Source of the DNA: Chryseolinea serpens
Lineage (GTDB): Bacteria > Bacteroidota > Bacteroidia > Cytophagales > Cyclobacteriaceae
Reading direction: 5' to 3'
Assembly (NCBI RefSeq): GCF_900129725.1
Contig: NZ_FQWQ01000002.1
Span: 930,001-994,000 of the forward strand
DNA: 64,000 bases
The notes under the pieces were generated by a model. It saw only the letters and a program-made list of their open reading frames with translations, was not told the DNA's origin and made no database searches. Position 1 is the first letter of the stretch; the number at the start of each line of letters is the position of its first letter. Below are positions 18,434 through 36,324 of the stretch, piece by piece. The translations under genes and the position numbers were made by a program.

Positions 18434-18577
18434 GGGTTCGAGGGTCTGCGGTGGGGGTAAAGTTATTGAGATATTCGAAATATCCGAGGTGGGCGTGGTG
18501 ATGGTTGTGGGGGGCGTTGTGTTCGAAAATTTTCGAGATACACGGGGTTTTGTTTATGGGGTGGTTGTGTCCGGATC

Positions 18578-18713
18578 TTTGTTGGTGGGACACCAACAAA
18601 GGGGTGGGTAGTGCTATTGGGCGTGCTGTATATGAATTGGTGGCTGGCCCAATTGGGCAACTACTATTGGGGGGTTTTGTATCCGAATGTTGTTGGTGAA
18701 GAACACCAACAAC
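18578..18713. repeat. Diverged relative of the 169-bp hairpin-ended element
   Basis: Two perfect 10-bp hairpins ~90 bases apart: TTTGTTGGTG-GGA-CACCAACAAA (18578-18600) and GTTGTTGGTG-AAGAA-CACCAACAAC (18689-18713). The second matches the end hairpin of the elements at 31804-31972 and 35293-35461, including the loop and the following GGCG. The interior is only weakly similar. It sits in the 295-base gap between xseA and the polyprenyl synthase gene and runs up to the latter's stop. Confidence 0.7.
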
Positions 18714-18728
18714 GGCGTGGGGCGCGGG

Positions 18729-26058: not shown

Positions 26059-26193
26059 GAATTATCCGATTGCGGACACCTTCGTTCGGTTATGGCCGGA
26101 TATTTAATCAAAATCGCATTTTAAGGCCCTAAAAGCCACTCTTGCCGACTGGCATTGATATTGGGTACAACGTTTCCAATCTATCTCATCGCT

Positions 26194-28617
26194 ATGCTCA
26201 AAAATTATATCACGATCGCGCTGCGCAACATCAGCCGGAATAAAGCTTACTCGGCCATCAACATTTTCGGGTTGTCGCTGGGTGTGGCTTGTTGTTTATT
26301 GCTGGCGTTCTATATCCAGGACGAATTCAGTGTCGACAAGCACCTGGCCGACAGCGACAACCTCTATCGCATTGTCACCCATTTCGATAGCGAGATGGTC
26401 ATCGACGAAAGCGGCACGGCTTCGCCCCCCATCGCCATGACGGCGAACGACGAAATTCCGGAGGTGGTGTCGGCCGCGCGATTGGTCAGTCCTCCCGGTG
26501 TGGGCGAAAGCCTGATCAAATACGAAGACAATATCTTCTACGAAGCCGGAGGCTACCTGGCCGACTCGACGCTGTTCGACGTGCTGACCTACACGCTCAC
26601 GGAAGGCAATCCGAAAAAAGCGTTGGTGGACGCCAACAGCGTGGTGATCTCCCAAACGATCGCGAAAAAATTATTTGGGAACAGCGAAGCCCTGAACAAG
26701 ATCATTAGTATTAGCCAGGGAGGTCCGGCCGTCGATTTCAGGGTCACCGGCGTCTTCATGGACAACCACAAAAGTCACGTGATGCCGCACTTCTTCACCT
26801 CCATGACCAGCACCGGTTGGGCCGAATACATGCGCTCGGATCAGGCGCAAGGCGAATGGGCGGGGCAGAATTTTGTGCCTTCCTATCTCAAACTCGCCCC
26901 CGGTCACAATTTGAAGACCGTCGAAAAGAAATTGAATGAAATGCTGCAGCGTCACGGCGCCGAAGACATGAAAGCACTGGGTATCCCAAAGACGCTTTCG
27001 CTCGAGCTGGTGAAGGACATTTACTTGTATTCGGAGGTACACCAAAGCCCGCGCATCGTCTACATCTATATCATCGCCTCGATCGCGGTGTTCATCCTGT
27101 TGATCGCCTGTATCAATTTCATGAATCTCTCCACCGCCAAAGCTACCAAGCGCGCGGGCGAGATCGGGTTGCGCAAAGCGATGGGTGCGGTTCGCAGTTC
27201 GCTGATCGGGCAGATCCTGGGCGAGGCCATGATCATCGTGCTCATCTCCATTTTGATCAGCCTGGTGATGGTGCAGCTTTCCCTTCCGTTCTTCAATGTC
27301 CTGACGGGAAAAGACATCTCGTTCAACTCCGGCAACGCAGCCTATGTGATCGGCGCGTTGGGCGCGCTTACGGTCGTCACCGGTCTGTTGGCCGGCAGTT
27401 ATCCCGCGTTCTACCTCTCCTCGTTCCAACCGGCACAGGTGTTGAAGGGAAAAGCTATCGTGAGTGGAGGCTCCGGGCTCTTGCGCCAATCGCTGGTCGT
27501 GTTCCAGTTCATGATCGCCATTGCGTTGGTTTGTGGCATGCTCATTATCGGAAGTCAGCTGCGGTATATTGAAAACAAAAATCTCGGTTTCAATTCCGAC
27601 GCGCTCATCGTGCTGCCGATGCGCAGTGGCGACGCGCTGAAAAATGCCAAGGCCCTGCAACTTGAATTGCAGCGCGTGGCGCATGTGAAACAAGTTTCTT
27701 CGGCCGCCTATGTGCCGGGCTCACAAGTCTGGAGCGATTTCTCGCTGTATGCCCAGGGCGGCAACATGGACAACGCGGTCGATCACCTGAACATTCACGT
27801 GGGTCCGGGCTTCACGGAGATCCTCGACCTGAAAATTCTCGCCGGCCGCACCTTCTCGGAAGATACGGCACAGGAAAAAGAAGGCAACCTGGTGATCAAC
27901 CGCACCGGCGCCAAAACCCTGGGCTTCGAACCCGAAAAGGCAGTAGGCCAGGAGTTGTTCACCGAGTGGCAGGGAGTTAAATACACGTTCCAGGTTATTG
28001 GAGTGATCGAAGATTACCACCAGAGCACGCTGAAAGAAAAAATCAGGCCGATGCTGTTTCAACTGTTTGAGACCCGGAGCCCCGACTATGTACTGCTGAA
28101 AACCGATACCCGGTATTTCAAAGAAACGATCGCCGACGTGGAAAAAGTCTGGAAGCAGATGATCGACGACACCCCTTTTGAATACACGTTCCTGGACGAG
28201 AACATCCGCAAGAACTATGAGCAAGACCGCAAAGTGTCGGCCATCATTACCACGTTCACGCTACTGGCGATGCTGATTTCGTGTTTGGGATTGTATGGCT
28301 TGTCCACCTTCATGGCCGAGCGCCGCTTCAAAGAGATCGGTGTGCGCAAAGTGTTGGGTGCCGATGTGCGCCAGATCGTGGCCCTGATGTCGAAGGAGTT
28401 TGTGAAGTTGGTGCTCATCGCCTTTGTCATTGCCGTGCCGCTGGCGTGGTATGCCATGTCGCGATGGCTGGAAGGGTTTGAATACAAGACCACCATCGAC
28501 GTACTCATCTTTGTGTATAGCGGCCTGGCGGCCCTGGTCATCGCGTTGACGACGGTGAGTTTTGAGTCGATCAGAGCGGCCATCGCCAACCCGGTCAACG
28601 CCCTACGAAACGAATAA
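26194..28617 (+). CDS. FtsX/MacB-type ABC transporter permease (~800 residues)
   Basis: A ~807-residue permease with duplicated halves. Each half has an N-terminal helix, a large periplasmic MacB_PCD domain and an FtsX bundle: NISRNKAYSAINIFGLSLGV, FMNLSTAKATKRAGEIGLRK, then LISCLGLYGLSTFMAERRFK and EIGVRKVLGADVRQIVALM. It ends with the typical IANPVNALRNE. These proteins need an ABC ATPase, but none is nearby. The start ATG at 26194 (MLKNYITIALRNI) agrees with paralogues; the longer frame from 26155 does not. It is followed after 32 bases by a paralogue, probably in one operon. Substrate unknown. Confidence 0.9.
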   Translation: MLKNYITIALRNISRNKAYSAINIFGLSLGVACCLLLAFYIQDEFSVDKHLADSDNLYRIVTHFDSEMVIDESGTASPPIAMTANDEIPEVVSAARLVSPPGVGESLIKYEDNIFYEAGGYLADSTLFDVLTYTLTEGNPKKALVDANSVVISQTIAKKLFGNSEALNKIISISQGGPAVDFRVTGVFMDNHKSHVMPHFFTSMTSTGWAEYMRSDQAQGEWAGQNFVPSYLKLAPGHNLKTVEKKLNEMLQRHGAEDMKALGIPKTLSLELVKDIYLYSEVHQSPRIVYIYIIASIAVFILLIACINFMNLSTAKATKRAGEIGLRKAMGAVRSSLIGQILGEAMIIVLISILISLVMVQLSLPFFNVLTGKDISFNSGNAAYVIGALGALTVVTGLLAGSYPAFYLSSFQPAQVLKGKAIVSGGSGLLRQSLVVFQFMIAIALVCGMLIIGSQLRYIENKNLGFNSDALIVLPMRSGDALKNAKALQLELQRVAHVKQVSSAAYVPGSQVWSDFSLYAQGGNMDNAVDHLNIHVGPGFTEILDLKILAGRTFSEDTAQEKEGNLVINRTGAKTLGFEPEKAVGQELFTEWQGVKYTFQVIGVIEDYHQSTLKEKIRPMLFQLFETRSPDYVLLKTDTRYFKETIADVEKVWKQMIDDTPFEYTFLDENIRKNYEQDRKVSAIITTFTLLAMLISCLGLYGLSTFMAERRFKEIGVRKVLGADVRQIVALMSKEFVKLVLIAFVIAVPLAWYAMSRWLEGFEYKTTIDVLIFVYSGLAALVIALTTVSFESIRAAIANPVNALRNE

Positions 28618-28649
28618 CCCCGACTGAGTTCACCCCTAAACCTACCGAT

Positions 28650-31007
28650 ATGCTGCGTAACTATCTTGTCATCGCCTGGAGAAGCCTGCAGAAAAGCAGG
28701 GTGTATTCCTTCATCAACATCGCGGGCCTTTCCATTGGGTTGGCATGCAGCATGTTTATTTTTCTGTGGGTGGCCGACGAGCGGTCGTGGGATAATTTTC
28801 ATGAAAAGAAAAGCGAGCTGAACCGCGTCTACATCAACTGGCTTGGCGACCGCGGTGTGCAAACACAGATGGCGGTGAACTTGCCGCTGTGGGAAGAACT
28901 CAAGCATGATCGCGACATCGTGCACGTGGCGCCCACCGACTGGGGTCGCGAGTTTTTGCTGACCTATGGCGAAAAGCGATTGTACCGGACCGGTTATTAT
29001 GCCGGCGACGACTTCCTGAAGATGTTTTCATTCCCTGTGGTGCAAGGATCAGCCGAAAACCAATTGAAGGATCCGTCCACCATGGTCATCACCGAAAGCA
29101 CGGCGAAAGCGTTGTTTGGCGACGAAGACCCGATCGGAAAAATGATCCGCGTAGACGACCGGGGAGAACTCACCGTGACGGGCGTAACCAAAGATGTCCC
29201 CACCAACTCCACGTTCCAGTTCCAATGCCTGTTGCCCTTCAGCACCTACGCTATCCGCGAACCCTGGACAAAAGAAGCGATGACGCAGTGGTCCAACAAC
29301 TCCTTCAATCTCTATGTAGAATTTGCAAAAGGCGCCGAGGCACAAGCCATTGAAAGCCGTTCAAAAGATATCATCAAAAAACACCGGGAGAATTCCACCC
29401 AGGAAGTAACGTTCCTGCCCATGGAGCGCTGGCGTCTTTTTGGCGAATTTGAAAACGGCAAGAGCACTACGGGCACCATCGTGTATGTGCGTATGTTCAC
29501 TATCATCGCCCTCTTCATCCTGGTGATCGCCTGCATCAACTTTATGAACCTGGCCACGGCCCGCTCCGAACGACGCGCCCGTGAAGTAGGGATCCGCAAG
29601 AGCATCGGCTCCAAACGCAAAGACCTTGTGGTGCAATTCCTGGGAGAAACTTTTTTTATAACGATCCTCGCGTTCATTCTCGCAGTGGGATTGGTAGAAA
29701 GCCTGTTGCCGCTCTACAACGACCTGGTGGACAAAAAGCTGTTTATCGACTTCACAAACCCTTTGCTGTGGCTGGTTTCGGTTGGCGTGATCGCGATGAC
29801 CGGTTTTATTTCCGGCAGCTATCCCGCGCTCTACCTTTCCTCGTTTCAACCCGCCGCGGTGCTGAAAGGAAAAATGCAGATGGGCAAGAGCGGCACCACG
29901 CCCCGCCGGATGATGGTGACCCTCCAGTTTTTCTTTTCCATCGTGCTGATCTTTTCCACGATGGTAATCTACAAACAACTCAACCACCTGAGAAACCGTC
30001 CCACCGGCTACGACGGCGCACGCCTGGTCACCATTGGTTCTGTAGGCGACATTCCCAAGAACTATAACACCATCAAACAAGAGCTGCTGGCTTCCGGCCT
30101 GGCCGAAAACGTCATGCGATCGTCGAGTCCCATCACGGCCATCTATGGTTTCAAGGAAGTGGGCTGGGCCGGCAAACGCGAAGATCAACGATCGTCGTTT
30201 GCCATCATCGGAACGGACTATGATTATACGAAAACCCTCGGTGTGAAAATGCTCCAGGGCCGCGACTATTCGGATGCCTACAACGATTCCTCCTCGATCA
30301 TCCTAAACCAGACAGCCGTGGAATATATCGGTCTCAAAAATCCCATCGGCGAAACCCTGACCATAGACGACCACAAGTTTACCGTCATCGGCGTAACCGA
30401 AAATGTGATCATGAATTCGCCACAGCGGCAGATCGATCCCACCGTACTCGTCTTTGATCCCAACTGGATGAGCGACGTGACGCTCCGGCTGCCGGAAAAT
30501 AAAAATACACAGGAGGCATTGGCCGGGGTGGAAGCGATCTTCAAGAAATACAACCCCTCGTATCCGTTCACCTTCCGTTTCACGGAAGACGAGTTCAACC
30601 GCAAATTCACCAACATTCAACGCGTCGGCCGCCTGGCCAATCTCTTTGCCGGCCTGGCCATTCTCATTTCTTGTCTCGGGCTTTTTGGACTTGCCGCCTT
30701 CACGGCCGAACAACGCACGAAAGAAATCGGCATTCGGAAAGTGTTGGGGGCTACCGTGTCGAGCGTGGTCGTTTTGCTGTCGAAAGAATTTACCCGGCTG
30801 ATCATTCTGGCCTTTGTGCTGGCGGCGCCGTTGGCTTGGTGGGCCATGAACCAATGGCTACAGGAATATGACTACCGTATATCCATTCCATGGTGGATTG
30901 TGGCGAGTGCCGGTGGTCTGGCGTTTGTACTGGCGGTTGCCACGGTAAGTTTTCAGGCCGTCAAGGCTGCGGTGGCCAATCCTGTGAAGTCGCTGCGAAA
31001 CGAATAA
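28650..31007 (+). CDS. FtsX/MacB-type ABC transporter permease (~785 residues)
   Basis: A 785-residue paralogue of the preceding gene with the same architecture: MLRNYLVIAWRSLQKSRVYS, INFMNLATARSERRAREVGI, LISCLGLFGLAAFTAEQRTK and the ending VANPVKSLRNE. It lies 32 bases after its neighbour and is probably co-transcribed. The two are clearly related but diverged, so the pair is not a recent duplication. Function is inferred from the family only: mechanotransmission or export driven by an ATPase encoded elsewhere. Confidence 0.9.
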   Translation: MLRNYLVIAWRSLQKSRVYSFINIAGLSIGLACSMFIFLWVADERSWDNFHEKKSELNRVYINWLGDRGVQTQMAVNLPLWEELKHDRDIVHVAPTDWGREFLLTYGEKRLYRTGYYAGDDFLKMFSFPVVQGSAENQLKDPSTMVITESTAKALFGDEDPIGKMIRVDDRGELTVTGVTKDVPTNSTFQFQCLLPFSTYAIREPWTKEAMTQWSNNSFNLYVEFAKGAEAQAIESRSKDIIKKHRENSTQEVTFLPMERWRLFGEFENGKSTTGTIVYVRMFTIIALFILVIACINFMNLATARSERRAREVGIRKSIGSKRKDLVVQFLGETFFITILAFILAVGLVESLLPLYNDLVDKKLFIDFTNPLLWLVSVGVIAMTGFISGSYPALYLSSFQPAAVLKGKMQMGKSGTTPRRMMVTLQFFFSIVLIFSTMVIYKQLNHLRNRPTGYDGARLVTIGSVGDIPKNYNTIKQELLASGLAENVMRSSSPITAIYGFKEVGWAGKREDQRSSFAIIGTDYDYTKTLGVKMLQGRDYSDAYNDSSSIILNQTAVEYIGLKNPIGETLTIDDHKFTVIGVTENVIMNSPQRQIDPTVLVFDPNWMSDVTLRLPENKNTQEALAGVEAIFKKYNPSYPFTFRFTEDEFNRKFTNIQRVGRLANLFAGLAILISCLGLFGLAAFTAEQRTKEIGIRKVLGATVSSVVVLLSKEFTRLIILAFVLAAPLAWWAMNQWLQEYDYRISIPWWIVASAGGLAFVLAVATVSFQAVKAAVANPVKSLRNE

Positions 31008-31039
31008 GCGCAGCGATGGTGAGGTGAAACACTCCGCTC

Positions 31040-31648
31040 CTATTTCACTTCGTAATACAATTTATTCAGGTCCTGTAGTTGACCGGGAAAGATCTCCACG
31101 GTTTCGGCGCAGCGCACGATCATCTTTTTTATGTCCGCTTCATCCTTTCCTTTTTCCAAGGGAGCGTTGAACGTGAGCATCTGGTCGAAACAGATGGCGA
31201 AAATGTAGAATTGCTTGCTGATCGATGGATTGTCCTTGGGCATGGTCAGCGTCCAGAGCAGCATGGGTTTGTTGTTGATGTTCAGGTATTCGGCTTTGCC
31301 TTTCAAGGGCCCTGCGTTCAATTCTTTTTCGATATAAGCTTGTTCATACTTCCGGTAGGCTTCGAGGAGGCGCTTTTGTTCGGCTGCGTCGGGGGCCTTT
31401 GGATTTTGAAGGAAGGGGATGATCGTGGCCTGGAAAAGTTTGCCGTCGACCCAGAGGAAGTTGGGGTCCTCGGTGTTTTTCACCGAGTCGGCTTCGATGC
31501 GAAAAGTAAAGGAATTGGTGTGACCATTGTAGACCACCATCACACCATAACGGGCTTTAAGCTTGGCGGTTAGGAATTCTTCGGCTTGGTATTGGGCTTG
31601 GGTACTTAATGATGCGAGGAGAAGGAAGATGAGGAAGAAGTTTTTCAT
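31040..31648 (-). CDS. Secreted hypothetical protein
   Basis: A 202-residue protein with a clean signal peptide (FFLIFLLLASLSTQAQ) and a soluble mature part. No known family recognised; the pattern YGVMVVYNGHTNSFTFRIEA and the hydrophobic core FYIFAICFDQML suggest a small folded beta domain. It converges on the permease pair with a 32-base gap and is read toward it. Upstream lies a repeat-rich gap with an ACCGCAAAGGCGCAAAGACGC motif and a full 169-bp element. Confidence 0.7.
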   Translation of the reverse strand: MKNFFLIFLLLASLSTQAQYQAEEFLTAKLKARYGVMVVYNGHTNSFTFRIEADSVKNTEDPNFLWVDGKLFQATIIPFLQNPKAPDAAEQKRLLEAYRKYEQAYIEKELNAGPLKGKAEYLNINNKPMLLWTLTMPKDNPSISKQFYIFAICFDQMLTFNAPLEKGKDEADIKKMIVRCAETVEIFPGQLQDLNKLYYEVK

Positions 31649-31708
31649 GGTGTAAGTTTAACCGCAAAGGCGCAAAGACGCAACTTCCACGCGCAGGCTT
31701 GGTGTTTT

Positions 31709-31740
31709 TCGCCCGTCCTTGTTGATGTTTTTCTCCGCCA
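31709..31740. repeat. Decayed end of the 169-bp element
   Basis: CGCCCGTCCTTGTTGATGTTTTTCTCC resembles the left end CGCCCTTGTTGGTGTTCTTCACC of the full elements, with several changes and a lost stem. Assigned by position and wording only; a chance match is possible. Confidence 0.35.
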
Positions 31741-31803
31741 AAAAGTTGGGCTGGAACAGGTTTATATTCCACCACCTATTGCCACGAATTCCTCAAATTA
31801 CCC

Positions 31804-31972
31804 CGCCCTTGTTGATTTCTTCACCAACAAGAATTAGGGCACTAAATCATTGACGTATCGGAATACATAATGCAAGGGAATGCCCATTGTTTTTAAAGGC
31901 CGTTCACATCAGGTGCTTTTGGCCTATTGATTGTCACCCGATGCTTGTTGGTGAAGAACACCAACAAGGGCG
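31804..31972 (+). repeat. 169-bp MITE-like element, copy 1
   Basis: Runs from CGCCCTTGTTG to CAACAAGGGCG. The ends are inverted repeats of each other, and each end can fold by itself: the right one is a perfect 10-bp hairpin CTTGTTGGTG-AAGAA-CACCAACAAG (31944-31968). The reverse complement of the element at 35293-35461 aligns over the whole length at roughly three-quarters identity, with shared blocks such as AAATCATTGACG, AAGGGAAT and CGATGCTTGTTGGTGAAGAA. No reading frame, and no clear target-site duplication. It occupies most of the gap 31649-31984 between two minus-strand genes. Confidence 0.85.
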
Positions 31973-31984
31973 AGGCGACCGTGC

Positions 31985-32545
31985 TCAATTAATCACCCGC
32001 TCTTTCACTTTGTCTTCCACCGGCACAAACGTATAACCTTGCTGCTTCAGGGCATCGGCTTCATTGTAATACGATGATGCGTAAGTGATCTTTCCATCGA
32101 TGACTTTGTACACCACGTGGATCTTGATCGACACCGGTGGACGTCCATTTTTATACGTAACACCGAGTGAGCCCCACTCCAGCACCCAGTCACCTTTGAG
32201 CGGGCCCTCCGCTTCGGTGTGTGACAGCGCAGTGATGCGGTCGTATTTCATGGAACCGTAGACGGTTTCCCAGTTCTTGCGTGTCCTTTCCAGGTAGCTG
32301 GCACGTCTGGTGGTATCGCCCTTCACAGGGCCGTGATCTTTGAAATTGGGGGCCATAAACATTTCCATGGTGGCGACGTCGCCGACCAGGCTGGCCTGGA
32401 TGTATTGATTCACGATGGCTTTGTTCCGTTCACCCACTTCTGTCGCATTAACCGTTTCGTCTTTTTGGGGAGCAGCGGTGGGTTTGTCGCACGAGGTCAC
32501 GCCCATCACTATGATGATCATGGCCATAAAAGCTAAACCTTTCAT
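31985..32545 (-). CDS. NTF2/SnoaL-like lipoprotein
   Basis: A 186-residue lipoprotein with lipobox GVTSC (Cys19) and a SnoaL/NTF2-like fold: ERNKAIVNQYIQASLVGDVA, MEMFMAPNFKDHGP, and the closing strands VSIKIHVVYKVIDGKITYAS. Many Bacteroidota carry such exported NTF2-like proteins of unknown activity; a small hydrophobic ligand is possible. The stop lies 12 bases from the end of the 169-bp element, which may therefore shape the 3' end of the transcript. Confidence 0.78.
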   Translation of the reverse strand: MKGLAFMAMIIIVMGVTSCDKPTAAPQKDETVNATEVGERNKAIVNQYIQASLVGDVATMEMFMAPNFKDHGPVKGDTTRRASYLERTRKNWETVYGSMKYDRITALSHTEAEGPLKGDWVLEWGSLGVTYKNGRPPVSIKIHVVYKVIDGKITYASSYYNEADALKQQGYTFVPVEDKVKERVIN

Positions 32546-32869
32546 ATTCTGAGTTGGTCAGTATTCAAAGCAATACAAACACTCCTCATCATGGTTCGCC
32601 GACGATGAACAACACGGCAGGAAAATATGTGTTTTTTATTACCGGCTAACGCGGTCTGGTGTCTATCTAAATTTACGTATAACGCACCGAAAAGTAACGG
32701 CTTCGGCACTGAATTTTAGCGATCCCTTCAACCCCTTGTCGCCCGGTGGCGGACGATTTTGCACGTGTTCGTCCAACCTGATTTAGCGCCAACCCGTCAA
32801 ATCACTTCCATTCGACGTTTTGTGCGTGGCATTGGAATTGACTTGGCGTGATCGACTAATCCGCTCCCT
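32546..32869. other. Intergenic region, no clear feature
   Basis: 324 bases between the divergent NTF2-like lipoprotein and the third permease gene. A one-mismatch -7 box TAAATTTA near 32667-32674 was noticed; no repeat, convincing promoter or small gene was seen. Confidence 0.5.
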
Positions 32870-35257
32870 ATGTTCAAAAGCTACTTCATCACCGGTCTGC
32901 GCAATCTGACGAAACAGAAAGCCTACTCCTTCATCAAGATCATCGGACTCGCCTTCGGACTCGCCGCCAGCATGATGATCTATCTCTACATCGAAGAAGA
33001 CCTGAGTTACGACACGTTCCACCACAACTACGACCGCATCGTGCGCCTCCTCACCATCGATAGCGCCGAAGGGGTGAGCAGCAAGCACGTGGGCGTGACC
33101 CAACCCATGCTAGCGCCCACCGCCGAGGCCGAATTGCCCGAAGTGACGGAAAGCGTGCGCTTCACCGGTGGCGGCCGCTACGACCTACGCTATGGCGACA
33201 ACATCCTGAAATGCGAAGCCGCCTTTCGCGTAGACCCTTCTGTGTTCGACGTATTCGATTTTCCCATCCTGGATGGCGAGAAAAAAGGCGCACTCGACAA
33301 ACCGGGCTCGATCGTGATCACCAAGACCCTGGCAAAGAAAATATTCGGCAATGAAGAACCGGTGGGCAAGACCGTGAAGCTCAACCAAACCACCGACTTG
33401 TTTGTGACGGCCGTCATCGCCGACCTTCCCAAAACGTCGCACCTGCAATTCGACCTGCTCCACTCGCTGGTGCCCGGCCAAAATGACGACGGGCTGCGCC
33501 AGGCATTGGAAACGTGGCAAGGGATTTTCACTTTCTCTTATCTGCTCCTGGACAAACCCGCCAATATCCCCGACCTCAATGCAAAACTCCAGGCCATCAC
33601 CAAAAAGAATAACGCCTACCAATTTTTCACACCCGATGTGCAGCCGCTACGCGATGTTCATTTGAAGTCGAAGGAGATCTTGTTCGAAACCAACGCAAAC
33701 AAATCGGATATCCTCAATGTGTATGTACTCTCCACCATCGCCGCCCTCATCCTGATTTTGGCGGCCGTGAATTTCATGAACCTCGTCACGGCAAAATCGG
33801 CCGGACGGGCCAAGGAAGTGGGCATGCGCAAAGTGATCGGCGCCGTGAAATATCAACTCATCGGACAACACCTGATCGAATCTATTGTCGTAACCACCGT
33901 GGCCGCCATATTGGCTGTGGTGATCGTATTTGCCGCGGTACCCGTGCTGAACAGCACGTATCAACGGTTTGCCGACGTCATGATCCTGTTGCAGCCTTCA
34001 AGCCTCCTCATGCTGGGTGGTTTGGTGCTGGTGGTGGGCGTATTGGCCGGAATTTATCCGGCATTTGTGTTGTCGGCTTTCAAACCGATCCTGGTGCTGA
34101 AAGGATCGTTCAAAAATTCTACACGCGGCATTCAGCTGCGCAAGGCCCTGGTGGTACTGCAGTTCACCATCTCCATCGCGCTCATGGTGGGCACCGGCAT
34201 TGTCTACCAGCAAATGCGCTTCATCTACAGCGCCGACCTGGGCTATAGCCGCGACCAGGTGATCACCATCCAACAAAACGGCGACGCCGTGACCCGCGCC
34301 ACCGCCCTGAAAACGGAATTGATGCGCAACGAAAACATTGTTTCCGCCGGCACCTCCTCCGCGCGTCTCGGACAACAACTGGGGCGCACCAACATTTTCC
34401 CCGAAGGCTCCACCAGCGAAACCAACATCATCACCAGCGTCATGGTGGCCGACGAAAACTTCATTCCCACCATGGACATGAAAATGGCCGCCGGCCGGAA
34501 TTTCTCCGTCGAGTTCGCCGACTCGCTGTCGATCATCGTGAATGAGGAAATGCTCCGGCTTTTGAAGTGGAACGATGCCCTGGGTAAGAAGATCGGGTTG
34601 CAATCGGGGGCCACAGTGGCCGACCAAACACAATACACCGTCGTTGGTGTCGTAAAGGATTTTCATTTTGCTACGATCCGGCATAAGCTGGAGCCTATGT
34701 TTATGCTCTACAACAAAGACAACAACGCTTTGTCGATCAAAATCAAAGCCGGCGACATTCAGAATACACTGGCTTATGTGGAAGCTACTTGGAAAAAAGT
34801 GAATCCGGGCACGACTTACGAGTACGCTTTCCTGGATGAACAATTCGCAAACCTCTATCGCAATGAGCAGGCTTTTGCCAACATGTTTACGCACTTCACG
34901 GTTTTGGCGTTGGTGATTGCTGGGTTGGGATTGTTCGCGTTGTCGGCCTTTACGGCGGAACAACGCAAGAAAGAAATCGGAATCCGAAAAGTACTGGGGG
35001 CCAGCAATGCCACGATATTCTATAAGCTCTCATCCGAGTTCATCATGCTGATCCTGGTGGCGTTTGTGCTTGCCAGTGGCGTGGCCTATTTTGTGATGAC
35101 ACAATGGTTGAAGGATTTTCAATACAGCATTCAAATTGGCGTGGGCATCTTCGCGTTGGCGGGCGCTGCTTCGGTGATGATTGCTTTGCTGACGATTAGC
35201 TTTCAGGCGTTGAAGGCGGCGTTTAGCAATCCTGCGGATGCATTACGGACAGAGTAG
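32870..35257 (+). CDS. FtsX/MacB-type ABC transporter permease (~795 residues)
   Basis: The third large permease: 795 residues with MFKSYFITGLRNLTKQKAYS at the start, NFMNLVTAKSAGRAKEVGMR in the first FtsX unit, GLFALSAFTAEQRKKEIGIR in the second, and the ending FSNPADALRTE. It stands alone on the plus strand and is not adjacent to an ATPase. Downstream, 36 bases after the stop, begins the second full 169-bp element. Confidence 0.9.
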   Translation: MFKSYFITGLRNLTKQKAYSFIKIIGLAFGLAASMMIYLYIEEDLSYDTFHHNYDRIVRLLTIDSAEGVSSKHVGVTQPMLAPTAEAELPEVTESVRFTGGGRYDLRYGDNILKCEAAFRVDPSVFDVFDFPILDGEKKGALDKPGSIVITKTLAKKIFGNEEPVGKTVKLNQTTDLFVTAVIADLPKTSHLQFDLLHSLVPGQNDDGLRQALETWQGIFTFSYLLLDKPANIPDLNAKLQAITKKNNAYQFFTPDVQPLRDVHLKSKEILFETNANKSDILNVYVLSTIAALILILAAVNFMNLVTAKSAGRAKEVGMRKVIGAVKYQLIGQHLIESIVVTTVAAILAVVIVFAAVPVLNSTYQRFADVMILLQPSSLLMLGGLVLVVGVLAGIYPAFVLSAFKPILVLKGSFKNSTRGIQLRKALVVLQFTISIALMVGTGIVYQQMRFIYSADLGYSRDQVITIQQNGDAVTRATALKTELMRNENIVSAGTSSARLGQQLGRTNIFPEGSTSETNIITSVMVADENFIPTMDMKMAAGRNFSVEFADSLSIIVNEEMLRLLKWNDALGKKIGLQSGATVADQTQYTVVGVVKDFHFATIRHKLEPMFMLYNKDNNALSIKIKAGDIQNTLAYVEATWKKVNPGTTYEYAFLDEQFANLYRNEQAFANMFTHFTVLALVIAGLGLFALSAFTAEQRKKEIGIRKVLGASNATIFYKLSSEFIMLILVAFVLASGVAYFVMTQWLKDFQYSIQIGVGIFALAGAASVMIALLTISFQALKAAFSNPADALRTE

Positions 35258-35292
35258 TCACCCGATCGCCACACGCCGTCACCCTCCGCGCA

Positions 35293-35461
35293 CGCCCTTG
35301 TTGGCGTTCTTCACCAACAAGCATCGAACAATAGTCATTCAAGTTACACGCGCTTGATGCGACCAGCATTTAGAGCGATGGGTATTCCCTTGGATCATGT
35401 ATTCTGGGCGTCAATGATTTGTCCCCTAAATTCTTGTTGGCGAAGAACACCAACAAGGGCG
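35293..35461 (-). repeat. 169-bp MITE-like element, copy 2 (inverted)
   Basis: The same length as copy 1 at 31804-31972 and its homologue when read on the minus strand. Both ends form near-perfect hairpins: CTTGTTGGCG-TTCTT-CACCAACAAG (35297-35321) and CTTGTTGGCG-AAGAA-CACCAACAAG (35433-35457), each with one C/A mismatch that reads as a G-U wobble on the other strand. It sits between the third permease and the promoter of the secreted unknown gene. Confidence 0.85.
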
Positions 35462-36293: not shown

Positions 36294-36300
36294 TTCTCAA

Positions 36301-36324
36301 TGGTGTTCTTCACTAACAAGGGCG
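36301..36324. repeat. Terminal fragment of the 169-bp element
   Basis: TGGTGTTCTTCACTAACAAGGGCG matches an end of the full elements with one change in the stem. It starts 7 bases after the secreted unknown gene, so that gene lies between a full element and this fragment. Confidence 0.55.

Follow-up and report, generated by a model that had tools for sequence, protein, structure and literature searches.

Two inverted 169-bp elements of Chryseolinea serpens as probable REP doublets of a REP-RAYT system

What kind of DNA are two hairpin-ended elements of 169 bp that lie 3.3 kb apart in inverted orientation? The elements, copy 1 (31804-31972) and copy 2 (35293-35461), stand in a stretch of 64,000 nucleotides of the Chryseolinea serpens genome (8.36 Mb), G000:C8:930001-994000, which we call the window; G-numbers denote genomes (G000 being that of C. 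serpens), C-numbers contigs (C8 being that of the window) and L-numbers the stretches taken for analysis. A preliminary description, made from the letters of the window, took the two copies for a non-autonomous mobile element with hairpin ends, in the form of a two-copy miniature inverted-repeat transposable element (MITE). We consider it very probable that both copies are doublets of repetitive extragenic palindromes (REPs), of the type called bacterial interspersed mosaic element (BIME) or REP doublet forming hairpin (REPIN), in a system of REPs and REP-associated tyrosine transposase (RAYT), which is a known kind of bacterial mobile DNA. The preliminary description holds in substance and fails as a two-copy MITE, since the hairpins are a genome-wide REP family.

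With one copy reversed, BLAST aligned the two at 78% identity over positions 1-169 (E 1.3e-28), and counting gaps gave 75.6% over 172 columns, in agreement with the three-quarters estimated by eye. The ends are 91% and 97% identical and the interior 64% of 106 columns, and the interiors align well beyond single-base shuffles (score 33 compared to a mean of -13.6, standard deviation 4.8 and maximum 3.0 in 2000 shuffles). As had been described, the copies are without reading frames, with no open reading frame (ORF) of at least 90 amino acids (aa) overlapping either, and their inverted ends are hairpins, each of which folds with z-scores of -3.5 to -6.5 compared to shuffled sequence. Each entire copy also folds as one long hairpin (copy 1, -37.6 kcal/mol, z -6.6; copy 2, -38.4 kcal/mol, z -6.3). 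A genome search with copy 1 returned 106 matches, nearly all of them to the terminal 30 bases or so; at full length it found itself and copy 2, and this match stops at the limits of the element. At its full length of 169 bp the element thus has two occurrences in the genome, whereas its end hairpin has about 129, neither of which the preliminary description had seen. Searching the window against Rfam at gathering scores gave no family.

The conserved unit is the end hairpin, which consists of the head CGCC and a 10-bp stem around TTGTTGGTG and CACCAACAA with the loop TTCTT. An oriented pattern search of the genome returned 129 such hairpins (61 plus, 68 minus), and the reversed pattern used as control returned 0. 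The profile and arrangement counts given here rest on 50 stretches around listed hairpin places together with the window, rather than on all 129. From these, a looser set of 123 matches and a set of 116 copies with at most three mismatches were used, the reverse reading of the palindromic copy L081 being uncounted. Matches of the looser set with more than two mismatches (3-5) needed three of the four head bases, which raises head conservation slightly; the head was CGCC in 108 of the 123. In the profile of the 116 copies, conservation is 95-97% for the head and 91-100% for stem and loop, with a variable closing pair. Outside the hairpin it dwindles over about 10 bases on the upstream side and about 20 on the downstream side. 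The closing pair changes in step, being C-G in 50, G-C in 38 and T-A in 25 of the 123 matches. Most hairpins (97 of 116) lie outside ORFs of at least 100 aa.

Covariation of the stem was assessed on 57 aligned hairpins out of 80 from several genomes, with 5-nt loops and distinct stems. This collection required a GCC-type head, hence gives no evidence on the head, and 23 of the 80 hairpins were left out by hand (many as weak matches, some for brevity), so that it leans towards structure. Stem positions were paired in 94.6% of cells versus 87.1% in shuffles, and 45 of 570 cells had changed on both sides versus 9.7 in shuffles, with 0 of 500 shuffles as high.

The hairpins are found singly, in tandem, and paired around other interiors. 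A neighbour within 400 bp was seen for 77 of the 116 copies, compared to a random mean of 1.5 of 129. Among 28 adjacent pairs at 90-180 bp, 19 were inverted with heads outward, 4 + 4 were tandem on either strand, and 1 was inverted with heads inward. We then compared the interiors of 20 doublets: most pairs were unrelated, 8 pairs were related (E 0.01), and copies 1 and 2 were each other's sole interior match. The 8 related pairs suggest that some doublets multiply together with their interiors. In G024 (L161:2387-2554, L162), three near-identical REP doublets of about 170 bp (96-98%) were observed. With genes called by a simple longest-ORF rule, 67 of 68 hairpin clusters had ORFs on both sides, with 31 convergent, 35 same-direction and 1 divergent gap, compared to 19, 53 and 24, respectively, among 96 control gaps of the same stretches. 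By Fisher's test, divergent gaps are avoided (p 1.2e-5) and convergent gaps favoured (p 5e-4).

A RAYT gene lies directly between two inverted hairpins of the same kind in G118 (contig C7). When 148 family genomes were searched with its protein, the homologue in the window genome was found at C8:32098-32580 (55% identical, E 7e-53), on the same contig and about 0.93 Mb away, in keeping with the earlier remark that the window itself holds no transposase; none was noticed there. Its ORF (L059:2090-2620) is intact and encodes 176 aa. It scores 90.4 bits (cut-off 80) against NCBIfam NF047646, the model for REP-associated tyrosine transposases, a family of Y1 HUH enzymes, and matches the TnpAREP structure 4er8 by sequence (E 9.4e-5). 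Its score for Pfam Y1_Tnp, 16.1 compared to a cut-off of 23, would explain why our first genome search with PF01797 missed it. That search found just an IS200-like gene and a RAYT of another clade, with other sequences around, and loss of the cognate enzyme was suggested until the protein search with the G118 RAYT overturned it. A relative's RAYT (L267), 62% identical to the C. serpens protein in the best segment, gave a structure model with a pLDDT of 93.8 and 4er8 as the best PDB match (E 2.9e-9). One hairpin lies 56 bp to the left of the C. serpens RAYT gene and four tandem hairpins with a 107-bp period lie 147-468 bp to the right, heads outward. We predict that this RAYT is probably the cognate transposase of the CGCC hairpins. 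Elsewhere in the genome, L010 (G000:C7:1097532-1097741) holds another RAYT, which belongs to a different clade and has its own type of hairpin alongside (AAAGTAAGTC...GACTTACTTT), so that a second REP family may be present.

In order to relate RAYTs to their flanks across Bacteroidota, we used 32 RAYT stretches (L059, L114, L180-L209), of which 28 remained after removal of the duplicate L184 and of L190, L197 and L205, where no ORF passed the filter (hairpins lie on both sides of L197 and L205, none near L190). Irrespective of sequence, hairpins whose stem was 8 or longer were found within 250 bp on both sides of 17 RAYTs, on one side of 8 and on neither side of 3, with a background of 0.040 per side. 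For the 50 best of the 80 kept named loci, derived from at least 594 pattern matches in 384 relatives, the corresponding values within 300 bp were 32, 8 and 10, with a background of 0.047; this set overlaps the 28 RAYTs (L271 is L180 and L274 resembles L182), and its count includes some few hairpins that are clearly unrelated (e.g. that of L270). The flanking stems vary by clade (GTTGGTG, GTTCGTG, GTTTGTG, GTCAGTG, GTCGGTG), and distances between RAYTs correlate with distances between stems (Mantel r 0.479, p 0.0001, 9999 permutations, n=25, the 3 of 28 without flanking hairpin being dropped). The TTCTT pattern, in a survey not aimed at the repeats of other clades, occurs in 18 of 148 family genomes and 13 of 84 genera, and the head is CGTC in the hairpins of some relatives. 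Integron attC sites and interbacterial-defence cassette arrays are candidates for clustered hairpins; for those of the relatives we set both aside, as the ORFs mapped in 20 stretches formed no regular array (recombinases were not searched for).

Comparison of chosen stretches with G148, a genome of the same genus with 110 hairpins, shows about 80-97% identity over aligned stretches, mostly 85-92%. At L046 a convergent gap of 206 bp in the window genome holds an entire doublet, and the orthologous gap in G148 is 30 bp; the matching gaps are 26 bp in G136 and 23 bp in G149, with the same right-hand gene and a left neighbour that may differ (G015 gave no usable gap). Since the doublet is absent from all of these, it was probably gained in the lineage of the window genome. 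No obvious target-site duplication was seen at L046, the one clean site examined. At L263 a doublet is present in G148 and absent from the matching place in the window genome, with a flank that is partly duplicated, and a heads-inward pair (L051) is found in the window genome only. L217 (G148:C1:96555-96714) has four REP hairpins in a 45-bp tandem where the window genome has one, which points to local amplification of single REPs. In G024, an other-clade RAYT truncated by a REP doublet was considered as an empty-site case and dropped, as the gene was not seen resuming beyond and the left border only was available. The idea of a guide rule by which the head would predict the cut dinucleotide was likewise set aside, clean borders being too few.

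As to the two copies themselves, G148 has copy 1 with an intact left hairpin and the left half only of copy 2, the similarity ending at window position 35371 (L247:11453). Because it stops inside the element, copy 2 marks a rearrangement or deletion border relative to G148. The two window doublets thus predate the split from G148; both probably descend from a single doublet, and the left end of copy 1 is now decaying in C. serpens. By analogy with published work on TnpAREP of E. coli and others, the RAYT would bind the hairpin in single-stranded DNA with the head as a guide, and would cut and rejoin the strand, so that doublets could be moved or copied in trans. The available part of PMC8266576 shows cutting of single-stranded REPs by TnpAREP, with the head contributing to the choice of the cut, and the same head-guided cutting may apply to CGCC hairpins. 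Both copies lie downstream of genes, a location that would be apt for the ends of transcripts, with a putative effect on RNA.

One alternative is that the hairpins are transcription terminators or RNA-stabilising hairpins which are under selection and immobile. The avoidance of divergent gaps, the preference for convergent ones and the paired changes that keep the stems would fit. However, the 116-copy profile has no T run, head and loop are conserved beyond pairing, an entire doublet differs between sister species, and the hairpins flank RAYTs and vary with them. We consider immobile hairpins very unlikely, although a terminator role is compatible with mobility and both can be true. Even less probable is the idea that the NTF2-like and permease genes between the copies moved with both elements as a composite unit, which the preliminary description had thought conceivable, or that the copies are a local inverted duplication. 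Their inverted orientation, their spacing and their mutual interior match agree with it, but the match between them is confined to the element, and in G136 the NTF2-like and permease genes stand next to each other, a single 2.0-kb alignment reaching from the former into the latter. In the 3.5-kb G136 locus, at the site of copy 1, every stretch differs from the REP core by at least 6 mismatches, and the gap that follows the NTF2-like gene has diverged so far that no clean border can be drawn. In G148 the same two genes stand between copy 1 and the left half of copy 2. The composite hop is not borne out by these two genomes; local copying of the doublet itself is possible. The least likely explanation, in our judgement, is a two-copy MITE of an unrelated DDE transposon, whose terminal inverted repeats would be the hairpins. 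It accounts for the inverted ends and for the full 169 bp being present only twice, but not for about 129 end hairpins that stand singly, in tandem or in pairs around other interiors; L046 lacks an obvious target duplication, and the genome has a RAYT gene flanked by these hairpins (DDE transposases with such ends were not searched for).

The assignment to REP doublets has to be weighed against several observations that do not favour it. The GT[AG]G head of the GTAG superfamily was not found in the C. serpens copies, which carry CGCC, and heads are CGCC or TGCC instead of GTAG. Two-sided changes affect 4 of 10 stem pairs, a value reached by 21 of 500 shuffles, and 19 of the 116 hairpins lie inside ORFs of at least 100 aa, some of which are probably spurious. 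With a GCC foot and outward orientation required, hairpins stand on both sides of 10, on one side of 9 and on neither side of 9 of the 28 RAYTs. Three of the 18 hairpin-positive genomes have 3-mismatch matches only. At a RAYT exponent of at least 45, a cut-off picked afterwards, 8 of the 148 genomes have both RAYT and hairpin, 12 the RAYT only, 10 the hairpin only and 118 neither (p 0.0005); the association has p 0.08 at exponent 50, and it fits at four of five cut-offs and fails at the strictest. G093, with 8 hairpins, yielded no RAYT at E 1e-12, and G015, with a RAYT, yielded none of these hairpins. Since both window copies are common to G148, there is no sign of their present movement, and the proposed action of the RAYT on CGCC hairpins draws on position and on covariation with the protein, no movement having been observed.

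The REP hairpin has a sister with the same stem, TCC as its loop and a head that is rich in C and lacks CGCC, present at 66 places of the genome at two mismatches or fewer. In the stretches analysed, 25 of its copies have TTCTT hairpins within 300 bp, which makes 35 pairs; both partners share a strand in 28, and in 18 of these 28 the TTCTT hairpin is the first; the stretches were picked around TTCTT hairpins and are uninformative on lone copies, and pairs within a cluster are not independent. Compared with G148, TCC-loop stretches L045 and L062 are found in the window genome only, and a TCC-loop hairpin in L248 in G148 only. The stretch in L045 (1915-1991, 77 bp, with the TCC-loop hairpin) has short direct repeats at its borders. 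The RAYT of the genus could conceivably serve two kinds of doublet, inverted TTCTT pairs and same-strand pairs of a TTCTT hairpin (CGCC head) and a TCC hairpin (C-rich head), which we put forward as a tentative and rather doubtful idea. In their geometry, the same-strand pairs are similar to the left and right ends of IS200/IS605 elements (in part PMC6006769). If the idea is true, the same-strand pair would be a REP unit that moves, or formerly moved, like the ancestral insertion sequence.

The features of the window are collected in Table 1. Three long permease-type genes that look alike (FtsX/MacB-like by eye) lie near each other at 26155-35257. About 28 kb before the window start, L009 (G000:C8:901752-902093) is an IS200/IS605-type transposase with CCCGTAGGGC-like repeats downstream, as judged by eye.

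Table 1 Hairpin elements of the window. Positions are those of the window; a point denotes a feature without strand.
Feature	Position	Strand	Remarks
Copy 1, REP doublet (REPIN-like)	31804..31972	.	two head-outward hairpins, interior of 100-odd bp; also in G148
Copy 1, left REP hairpin	31804..31833	+	head CGCC, partly decayed (6 mismatches to core); intact in G148
Copy 1, right REP hairpin	31941..31972	-	perfect 10-bp stem, loop TTCTT
Copy 2, REP doublet (REPIN-like)	35293..35461	.	inverted relative to copy 1; left half only in G148
Copy 2, left REP hairpin	35293..35324	+	1 mismatch to core
Copy 2, right REP hairpin	35430..35461	-	1 mismatch to core
Single REP hairpin	18686..18717	-	loop TTCTT, G-C closing pair
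Sister hairpin	18577..18601	-	same stem, 3-nt loop TCC; 111 bp from the 18686..18717 hairpin, same orientation
Possible decayed REP	31714..31745	+	5 mismatches to core, head CGTC
Possible decayed REP	36297..36319	+	4 mismatches to core, followed by GGGCGG

The repeat itself, the GCC head in place of GTAG and the same-strand partner hairpin look new; a search of open literature covering titles and abstracts, without supplements, returned nothing describing a CGCC repeat in this lineage. What makes the system moderately interesting, in our view, is the GCC head together with the same-strand partner and the covariation of repeat and enzyme between genera. A poorly described Bacteroidota branch of RAYTs gains a clear flanking repeat, in the form of perfect hairpins with a GCC head which, from genus to genus, vary as the enzyme does. 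Doublet gain and loss, and recognition of a head other than GTAG, become directly testable with two sister genomes that have about 129 and 110 copies.

REPs with a head, their doublets, RAYTs flanked by inverted REPs and the coevolution of both are established, according to the available parts of PMC2817692 and PMC3116915. The elements described here resemble the REPINs and BIMEs of PMC3116915, as far as that text was available, in having two inverted REPs with heads outward, a variable spacer and a unit that folds as a hairpin, and in being mostly extragenic, with many copies, singlets beside doublets and a RAYT in the genome. They differ in the head (CGCC instead of GTAG), in the distance between starts (99-168 bp here versus 71 bp in GI doublets) and in the frequent pairing with a second type of hairpin on the same strand. 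The RAYTs of TnpAREP subclass 2.6 (group 5) are, in the available part of PMC6006769, found mainly in Bacteroidetes, with atypical, weaker flanking structures that lack GT[AG]G and have copies elsewhere in the genome. Our system shares the Bacteroidota host and flanking hairpins without GT[AG]G that are copied elsewhere in the genome, and Roseivirga proteins carry NHIH, WQ, YIH[A/N]NP and SS. The C. serpens RAYT has NHMH, WE and YIHLNP instead of the NH[LIV]H, WQ and YIH[QN]NP of the subclass, and agrees in SS, by eye against the published table. Here the stems are perfect over 8-10 bp with a GCC head, a comparison made by description that carries no assignment. The CGTC-tagged REPs, as the available part of PMC3733652 describes them, also have a C-rich head (CGTC there; CGCC here, with CGTC in some relatives), stems of 8-9 bp (9-10 here), a 5-nt loop and head-head dimers. 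No transposase gene flanked by CGTC repeats is reported in that part of the paper, whereas a RAYT is flanked by CGCC repeats here, and the C. serpens profile has no CCA tail; this likeness is again one of description, with no membership claimed.

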